A stretch of 64,000 nt of DNA from the NCBI GenBank assembly GCA_017473265.1, contig JAFULQ010000023.1:1-64000 (forward strand), written 5' to 3'. Every line of letters starts with the position of its first letter. The stretch's first letter is position 1. Below the pieces are notes generated by a model. The model saw only the letters and a program-made list of their open reading frames with translations, made no database searches and was not told the origin of the DNA. Shown piece by piece: positions 59,950 to 61,593 of the stretch. The stretch is from Erysipelotrichaceae bacterium. Its GTDB lineage: Bacteria; Bacillota_I; Bacilli_A; Erysipelotrichales; Erysipelotrichaceae. The position numbers and the translations under genes were made by a program.

Positions 59950-59979
59950 GTAGACGTCTCTAATTTGAGACGTTTTTTA
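59950..59979. terminator. Terminator between tRNA operon and trpB
   Basis: ACGTCTC / GAGACGT stem with a 6-nt loop and T6 on the plus strand. It also faces the end of the convergent trpB gene. Confidence 0.88.
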
Positions 59980-61107
59980 TTGTTTCAAAACTAAATCCAT
60001 ATCTTTATCACCACGACCCGATAAGTTAATAATGATACAATCATCCTTACTATATTGTTTCGCAATCTTTAAAGCATAACTGATTGCATGACTACTTTCC
60101 AATGCAGGAATAATTCCCTCCAAACGACACAATAATTTAAATGCCTCAATCGCTTCATTATCCGTAATACTACCATATTGCACACGCTTTGTTTGATACA
60201 AATGTGCATGTTCTGGACCAACACCCGGATAATCCAAACCCGCCGAAATGGAATATGCTTCTTTGTCCATAATGTAAGTTTTCATTCCATGCATAATCCC
60301 AACCTTCGCACTTGCTAGAGCTGAAGCGTGCTTACCAGTACCAATCCCTTTACCAGCCCCTTCAACACCATAGATATCTACATCATCATCTAAAAATGCA
60401 GCAAACAAGCCGATGCTATTACTACCTCCACCAAGACATGCCACTATCGCCTTAGGCAATGTATTTTCTTGTTCAAATAGTTGTTCCTTTGCCTCTTCTC
60501 CTATTATTTTTTGAAAATACTTTACAATTTCAGGATATGGAGTAGGACCAACTGCAGAGCCTATTAAATAAAACACATCTGGATGTTCAACCAAATAATC
60601 AAACGCTTCATCAACAGCATCTTTTAAAGTACCATTTCCTCTTGTTACTGATATAACACTCGCTCCTAATAACTCCATACGAGACACATTAGCCCTTTGG
60701 CGTCGTATATCTTCTTCACCCATAAAAATCGTACACTTCATACCAAATAATGCACAAACCGTTGCAGTCGCCACACCATGTGATCCAGCACCCGTTTCCG
60801 CAATAATATGCTTTTTATTCATTCTTCTAGCTAATAACACTTGCCCTACTGCATTATTAATCTTATGAGCACCCGTATGATTCAAATCTTCACGCTTTAG
60901 ATACAATTTTGCCCCACCAGCATATACACTTAAGTTCTTAGCATAATACAAAGGGCTTGGTCTACCAACAAAGTTTTTTAAATAATACATATACTCTTCT
61001 TTAAATGACACATCTTCTTGAACTTCTCTAAATACTTCCTCAATTTCTTGCAATCTTACTGCTAAATCGTGTGGTACATATCTTCCACCAAATTCTCCAT
61101 AATTCAT
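59977..61107 (-). CDS. trpB: Tryptophan synthase beta chain
   Basis: 376 residues, nearly full length. The N terminus GEFGGRYVP, the PLP lysine in [11 protein letters not shown], the catalytic Glu in [11 protein letters not shown], the phosphate-binding [24 protein letters not shown] and the C-terminal LSGRGDKD are all present, so it should be active. It condenses indole with serine. No trpA or other trp gene is next to it, so the cell may make Trp from salvaged indole or keep the rest elsewhere. Upstream is a Trp leader with a terminator and two Trp-rich ORFs. The start has AGAGG eight bases upstream, inside the second ORF. Confidence 0.96.
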
Positions 61108-61168
61108 TCTTCATTTCCTCTTTCTTTCTAATCAAAACACATTTCCACCAATGCCAATCACTCTTCAT
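61040..61168 (-). CDS. Trp-rich upstream ORF 2, overlapping the trpB start
   Basis: 42 codons from an ATG at 61168, preceded by AAAGGAGGTGG, the strongest ribosome site in the region. It begins [19 protein letters not shown] and then runs across the trpB ribosome site and start in another frame, ending 67 bases inside trpB. Residues 5, 7 and 8 are Trp; three further Trp codons lie in the part shared with trpB. It sits just after the attenuator terminator, so it is present only in readthrough RNA. The Trp cluster and strong start suggest it is translated and senses charged tRNA-Trp. No protein function is proposed. Confidence 0.6.
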
Positions 61169-61191
61169 ATGCACCACCTCCTTTCACAACA

Positions 61192-61239
61192 TAAAAAGCA
61201 CACATATAGGTTCATCCACCAAACCCATACATGTGCTTT
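61192..61239 (-). terminator. trp attenuator terminator
   Basis: Arms 61222-61239 and 61195-61212 form an uninterrupted 18-bp stem counting G-U pairs, with a 9-nt loop, followed by T5 on the minus strand. It lies between leader ORF 1 and ORF 2. Confidence 0.9.
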
Positions 61240-61295
61240 ATTTCTGCTTTAAATAATATGTACACAAAAGCCGTATGGGTCATTTACACCATACG
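61223..61295 (-). promoter_or_regulatory. trp leader: mutually exclusive hairpins
   Basis: CGTATGG (61295-61289, in leader codons 15-17) pairs with CCATACG (61278-61272) to make a pause-type hairpin. ACCCATAC (61280-61273) can instead pair with GTATGGGT (61230-61223), which is part of the terminator stem. So 1:2, 2:3 and 3:4 pairings exclude each other, as in ribosome-mediated attenuation. Confidence 0.82.
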
Positions 61296-61339
61296 CACCA
61301 CCAATGATTCAATTGTGTTTTACTAACAAAATTGTTCAT
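61280..61339 (-). CDS. trpL: trp leader peptide (ORF 1)
   Basis: 19 residues, MNNFVSKTQLNHWWCVWCK, from an ATG at 61339 with GAGGT seven bases upstream. Three Trp codons (13, 14, 17) lie exactly at and before the first hairpin arm, and the stop codon overlaps the second arm. A ribosome stalled at these Trp codons would cover arm 1 and let the antiterminator form. The design is that of an attenuation leader peptide; the peptide itself probably has no role. Confidence 0.85.
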   Translation of the reverse strand: MNNFVSKTQLNHWWCVWCK

Positions 61340-61359
61340 ATATGTACCTCTATATTTTT

Positions 61360-61387
61360 ACTATACTCTTTTATCATACAAAGTCAA
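61360..61387 (-). promoter_or_regulatory. Promoter of the trp leader
   Basis: On the minus strand TTGACT (61387-61382) and TATAGT (61365-61360) with a 16-base spacer, about 20 bases before the leader ATG. Confidence 0.75.
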
Positions 61388-61398: not shown

Positions 61399-61422
61399 TC
61401 CCTTAGAATTGGAGATGACAGC

Positions 61423-61593
61423 ATGGAATACAAAGTTGTAGCAACTAGCAATAAATTAGAATTGTTCGCAAGAAAAGAACTAGAAAACGAAGTTAAGAAA
61501 CTAATAAAAGATGGATACAAACCACAAGGTGGCATTTCTTTCACCAAACAAGAAGATAAATTCTATTTTATACAAGCTATGATAAAAGAATAA
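61423..61593 (+). CDS. DUF1737 family small protein
   Basis: 56 residues: MEYKVVATSNKLEL, VKKLIKDGYKPQGGI and YFIQAMIKE. This beta-alpha-beta arrangement with a Gly-x-x-PQGG turn and a final Gln-Ala-Met is the DUF1737 pattern. Function unknown. GGAGATGA precedes the ATG at 61423; a longer frame from 61342 would start inside the promoter region and is rejected. Confidence 0.82.
   Translation: MEYKVVATSNKLELFARKELENEVKKLIKDGYKPQGGISFTKQEDKFYFIQAMIKE

Follow-up and report, generated by a model that had tools for sequence, protein, structure and literature searches.

A putative two-stage tryptophan-responsive leader of solitary trpB genes, comprising a leader-peptide attenuator and a Trp-codon ORF across the trpB start

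The B. subtilis at operon reportedly senses uncharged tRNA-Trp twice in series, by a T-box and then by rtpLP, in an arrangement involving rtpA (anti-TRAP) that Chen and Yanofsky are said to have described in 2003 and 2004; the rtpLP ORF reportedly ends 5' of the ribosome-binding site (RBS) of rtpA. The 2003 and 2004 papers of Chen and Yanofsky on the at operon are cited in PMC11255114. The enterobacterial trpL leader (E. coli trp operon; RF00513) combines Trp codons at segment 1 with alternative 1:2, 2:3 and 3:4 pairings and a terminator followed by a T-run. The Trp T-box (RF00230), found before trp genes and trpS in Bacillota, likewise responds to uncharged tRNA-Trp by premature termination of transcription, but binds the tRNA directly and needs no ribosome. 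Leader-peptide transcription attenuators replacing T-boxes have been reported from low-GC Gram-positives as well, e.g., for His in Erysipelotrichales, Peptostreptococcaceae and the B. cereus group (PMC9413887) and before hisS paralogues and hisZ in bacilli (PMC2965389), and for Leu in the S. aureus ilv-leu leader (PMC5794164).

The locus considered here belongs to an Erysipelotrichaceae bacterium and lies on the minus strand of the window, i.e., the whole analyzed stretch of 64,000 nt. The original prediction interpreted it as a trp attenuator of the ribosome-mediated type preceding a lone trpB. The predicted promoter, the 19-codon Trp leader and the three competing pairings, the last of them a terminator, were all recovered between positions 61387 and 61195, with trivial corrections to the pair counts: hairpin 1:2 comprises six pairs (plus two) instead of seven, antiterminator 2:3 has a G-U pair in addition to the expected eight, and the terminator, put at 18 pairs, has 18–20 depending on how its A/T ends are counted. 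The predicted interval ended just short of a second Trp-codon ORF (uORF2, 61168–61040), which is a part of the same control region. The following features were distinguished:

61360–61387, minus strand: promoter, −35 TTGACT, 16-nt spacer, −10 TATAGT (from reading the sequence)
61280–61339, minus strand: uORF1, a 19-codon leader ORF with three Trp codons; peptide MNNFVSKTQLNHWWCVWCK followed by a stop, its end being ...HWWCVWCK
61289–61294, minus strand: segment 1, GTATGG, overlapping the VW codons of uORF1 and pairing with segment 2 (hairpin 1:2)
61273–61280, minus strand: segment 2, ACCCATAC, pairing with segment 1 or segment 3
61223–61230, minus strand: segment 3, GTATGGGT, pairing with segment 2 (antiterminator) or with the 3' arm of the terminator
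61195–61239, minus strand: intrinsic terminator stem-loop of 20 pairs including the A-T ends, with a T-run at its end
61175–61184, minus strand: Shine-Dalgarno sequence of uORF2, AAAGGAGGTG, about 7 nt 5' of the uORF2 ATG
61040–61168, minus strand: uORF2, with early Trp codons 5, 7 and 8, crossing the trpB start in another frame and stopping 65 nt inside trpB
61117–61120, minus strand: Shine-Dalgarno sequence of trpB, GAGG
59977–61107, minus strand: solitary trpB, encoding the 376-aa beta chain of tryptophan synthase (TIGR00263, 561 bits, cut-off 392)

The terminator is directly followed by AAAGGAGGTGGTGCATATG and then by uORF2. Folding of 61190–61345 on the minus strand, suggested along with the original prediction, returned hairpin 1:2 together with the terminator at z = −3.9, none of 200 shuffles being equally stable; two terminators were found in the window against a shuffle mean of 0.1. 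Promoter-like matches are no more frequent in the window than in shuffles, and a TTGACA/TATAAT-like pair is likewise present 5' of uORF1 in three relatives (L083, L003 and L180). Since a short ATG-initiated ORF with at least three Trp codons arises in 77 of 5000 shuffles (1.5%), the decisive evidence is conservation across 19 distinct leaders (see below). An Rfam search of the window and the leader matched no known family; specifically, the Trp_leader model RF00513 gave no match in the window at the gathering threshold or at E up to 1, and the T-box model RF00230 gave none at the locus. Near the trpB promoter, a divergent small protein (61420–61593, plus strand) weakly resembles DUF1737 (22.8 bits against a cut-off of 24).

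Like trpL, the leader has Trp codons at segment 1, the same set of alternative pairings, and a terminator with a T-run; unlike trpL, it precedes a lone trpB instead of trpEDCBA and has another Trp ORF 3' of its terminator. Like the at operon, it would contain two serial sensors of uncharged tRNA-Trp, with transcription controlled first and translation initiation controlled second by a Trp-codon leader peptide, and in two relatives (L008 and L183) the first sensor is a T-box, too. Still, the first sensor here is usually a leader-peptide attenuator, and the target is trpB itself, not an anti-repressor gene. Similarly to rtpLP, uORF2 contains Trp codons, is served by a strong RBS of its own, and lies immediately 5' of the target gene and 3' of the transcriptional sensor; unlike rtpLP, it ends inside the target gene in 17 of 21 copies, is in frame with it in three, and ends upstream of it in one (L178). 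The His and Leu leaders sense other amino acids, and the consulted parts of the papers on them describe no second, translational leader. A full copy of the design on a lone trpB had been judged unusual for a low-GC Gram-positive. Leader-peptide attenuators in Bacillota are already on record for His and Leu; the open-access texts searched contained no description of a Bacillota trp leader peptide, on solitary trpB or otherwise, or of an overlapping Trp ORF.

Relatives of trpB (identity of at least about 67%) were collected by scanning contigs of GTDB genomes together with the host family, the host order, and the families of the relatives found on contigs, and identical upstream regions were removed before the leaders were counted. 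This left 19 distinct uORF1 leaders, i.e., that of the window and 18 further ones located 5' of trpB relatives from three families of Bacillota (L083, L182, L004, L006, L003, L170, L180, L168, L169, L172, L177, L007, L005, L002, L181, L176, L178 and L179), L180 and L168 being near-identical; the copies come mostly from metagenome-assembled genomes. The uORF2 set (n = 21) includes these 19 and the two T-box loci, L008 and L183. All 22 trpB genes (those of the 19 leaders, L008, L183 and L112) form one clade in the TrpB tree, with a support of 100/99 applying to the clade, not to its inner branching order, and this clade stands apart from the trpB genes typical of the family and order to which the host belongs.

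Both leaders were absent from the inspected loci of trpB relatives below about 65% identity. In the order, 77 of 316 genomes harbor trpB at E ≤ 1e-100, almost all of them as weaker matches, and the weaker loci inspected lack both leaders and belong to another trpB clade, ruling out a lineage-wide trait. In a phylum sample of 392 genomes, the window genome was the only one to pass the strict cut-off, and a DNA-pattern search for uORF2 in 395 genomes of the class returned nothing beyond the window. The design is, judging by the loci compared, sporadic and tracks a single trpB clade. Two genomes (G786 and G875) each carry two trpB copies (L167/L180 and L168/L181, respectively), all with the attenuator and uORF2; one member of each pair has its uORF2 fused in frame to trpB.

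The relatives offered an opportunity to look for loss of either the Trp codons or the complementarity, and all 19 distinct leaders keep both. The uORF1 core, LNxWWxVW or NNRWQVW, is retained with its Trp codons at the same place, and hairpin 1:2 and the terminator fold in 19/19 cases. The covariation anticipated from the design was also found: compensatory Watson-Crick changes (e.g., C-G to T-A) affect four columns of antiterminator 2:3, and one column of hairpin 1:2 displays such a change. The placement of the Trp codons for stall-driven antitermination, proposed for the window, agrees with the ribosome geometry in all 19 leaders when the downstream edge of the ribosome is assumed to be 12 nt past the first A-site base and the segment 2 core is taken as 7 nt. 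A ribosome whose A site holds a Trp codon of the conserved core covers 0–3 of the 7 core nucleotides, and one at the uORF1 stop covers 5–7 of them (19/19); an extra Trp codon further on in L182 is the sole one whose stall would cover all seven. A predicted leader ORF carrying end-product (Trp) codons, mutually exclusive 1:2/2:3/3:4 pairings backed by covariation, and stall/stop positions of the trpL type were found together. The predicted geometry of this stage is that of classical attenuation, and on comparative grounds it is close to certain that the stage is real.

The attenuator is strongly supported by covariation, Trp codons and geometry, but as an account of the control region the original prediction was incomplete: it missed the second Trp ORF, and the attenuator itself is exchangeable. 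In L008 and L183, its place is taken by a T-box, yet uORF2 is kept. The L008 T-box (RF00230, E = 7e-23) has UGG at the specifier position as read from the alignment, and the L183 leader is near-identical to it in sequence. A third T-box leader before trpB (L112; RF00230 at G258:C69:3903-4115, 98.5 bits, UGG) comes without uORF2. The window genome itself possesses 16 T-boxes, including one with UGG in its specifier region before trpS (recognized by its sequence), so the leader-peptide design is no substitute for a missing T-box system. Between the Trp-type T-box and trpS of this genome (L197:201-1246, G000:C20), there is a small ORF (MQGKQLEKSMYNKKLDGVCAGIAHYLDIDPTVIRL...). Upstream of a Clostridiaceae trpB (L010), a tandem pair of T-box-like antiterminator/terminator elements, AGGTGGCAATATAG and GGGTGGCACCACGG, was noticed by eye.

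All 21 copies of uORF2 possess a strong, near-perfect Shine-Dalgarno sequence and one or more Trp codons within the first ten codons, the ORF mostly starting with M-x-x-D-W-x-W. In 17 of the 21, it crosses the trpB start, trpB being in the +1 frame, and stops 50–77 nt inside trpB. Before trpB, the uORF2 frame is free of stops in 17/17 sequences, the other two frames accumulating 46 stops and 45 stops, respectively; as estimated from shuffles, a single sequence would have an open frame with a chance of about 0.17, and the 17 sequences are related, so a joint figure is not a probability. The distances from uORF2 to the trpB ATG (58, 61, 64, 73, 76, 79, 97 and 145 nt) are all 1 mod 3, all eight of them. 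Taken together, these regularities make a strong comparative case for uORF2 being a translated ORF under selection. The overlap region contains further Trp codons, WRIWW, dictated by YGEFGG of trpB.

The region around uORF2 and the trpB start is mostly less structured than its shuffles (fold z-scores from −1.6 to +2.3, mostly positive). With no structure beyond that of shuffles, an RBS-hiding hairpin acting on trpB, i.e., a translational attenuator of the ermC type, is unlikely and was rejected. From the unstructured character of the region, we infer that ribosome traffic over the trpB start would block trpB when Trp is plentiful and that early stalling would free it.

The reading we regard as quite probable is that a two-stage Trp-responsive cis-regulatory leader, i.e., the attenuator followed by occlusion by uORF2, controls a lone, indole-salvaging trpB. 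When charged tRNA-Trp is scarce, the ribosome would stall at the WW/VW codons of uORF1 and occupy segment 1; segment 2 would then pair with segment 3, the terminator could not form, and RNA polymerase would read on. When Trp suffices, the ribosome reaching the uORF1 stop would cover segment 2 and let the terminator form. On the read-through mRNA, ribosomes would load on uORF2 from its Shine-Dalgarno sequence. Given enough Trp, they would travel across the RBS and the start codon of trpB and terminate 50–77 nt inside it, keeping trpB initiation low; given too little, they would stall at the early DWxW codons, 5' of the trpB Shine-Dalgarno sequence, which would stay free.

Comparison of the loci establishes, at the level of sequence, the anatomy of the leader, its conservation and covariation, the preservation of the frame, the solitary state of trpB, and the exchange with the T-box. 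The direction and the size of the effects of both stages, above all the occlusion in the second one, are what we infer from this anatomy. Somewhat less firmly, but still leaning in favor, we suggest that uORF2 represents a previously undescribed, structure-free translational switch, in which ribosome traffic would block the trpB start at plentiful Trp and upstream stalling would open it; such a module would work autonomously behind either an attenuator or a T-box, forming two successive tRNA-Trp checkpoints.

Several copies do not fit this two-stage scheme easily. In-frame fusion of uORF2 to trpB, making it an N-terminal extension (L002, L181 and L169; distance of 60 instead of 61 nt), should abolish occlusion; in L178, uORF2 is reduced to MKSWRF and a stop 5' of trpB; and in L172 and L178 a single early Trp codon remains. 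In L002, L181, L169 and L178, the second stage has probably been lost or is different. In addition, a ribosome slipping past the first Trp codons would stall at WRIWW, on the trpB start itself.

These exceptions lend some weight to the reading that only the first stage works, uORF2 being a short ORF present by chance or what is left of a former N-terminal extension: the attenuator alone would explain control by Trp, and a frame that is fused in three copies and shrunk to six codons in one is not essential everywhere. Against it, uORF2 is conserved as well as uORF1, its frame is stop-free in all the overlapping copies, the overlap lengths vary in multiples of three, and it persists behind the T-box in L008 and L183, so we consider this reading rather unlikely.

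A positive role of uORF2, e.g., in mRNA protection or in termination/re-initiation coupling, with stalling lowering trpB expression, would agree with its very strong RBS and its position abutting trpB, and translational coupling is common in bacterial operons. Nevertheless, the usual layout for coupling, in which uORF2 would end at the ATGA that starts trpB, is found in none of the copies, the 50–77 nt from the uORF2 stop back to the trpB start are far for ordinary re-initiation, and coupling would make trpB fall as Trp falls. The odds are clearly against such a role.

It is very improbable that uORF2 is translated to yield a longer TrpB, by a +1 frameshift or in-frame fusion, with Trp sensed inside the TrpB frame. 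The frame of trpB relative to uORF2 is indeed +1 or 0, never +2, and three copies are outright fusions; still, in 16 of the 17 overlapping copies the trpB frame is closed by a stop after the Trp codons and before the trpB ATG, ruling out in these a fusion by a shift at the Trp codons, and trpB keeps its own Shine-Dalgarno sequence and ATG in all copies, the fused ones included. Finally, an ordinary terminator with chance complementarity and no sensing of tRNA-Trp, as AT-rich intergenic DNA and the three-Trp ORFs of shuffles might suggest, is hardly credible in view of the compensatory double changes, the Trp codons and spacing kept over 19 copies, and the Trp T-box at the same place in two relatives.

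The solitary state of trpB, a part of the original prediction, holds. In the nine genomes that carry the uORF1 leader or its T-box variant (G000, G070, G786–G792), TrpA (PF00290) had no match in 9/9 and indole-3-glycerol-phosphate (IGP) synthase (PF00218) had no match above the cut-off. TrpA was present in G258, the genome with the L112 T-box, and both enzymes were present in 14 control genomes. Some of the nine genomes are incomplete, but joint absence of trpA and trpC as a sampling gap is unlikely; thus, with neither gene detectable, trpB is solitary. Since TrpA and IGP synthase are missing, the lone TrpB, as judged by gene content, most likely uses external indole to make Trp. Such synthesis of Trp is reported for gut Bifidobacterium (PMC11085991). 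The conserved active-site motif reads ETGAGSH in TrpB of the window, L083 and L112 vs. ETGAGQH in the other trpB sequences inspected; the variant is perhaps linked to working without TrpA.

From a regulatory point of view, the locus shows that transcriptional front ends, T-box or leader peptide, have been exchanged before a constant translational module. It is also a compact system in which the blocking of a start codon by an overlapping ORF can be tested, and it would extend the two-tier tRNA-Trp sensing of the B. subtilis at operon to the gene of a biosynthetic enzyme and to other families of Bacillota. The organisms with this leader appear, from their gene content, to make Trp only from scavenged or supplied indole, i.e., from the indole of others; hence, the leader likely decides whether the cell takes up Trp or scavenges indole in the gut.
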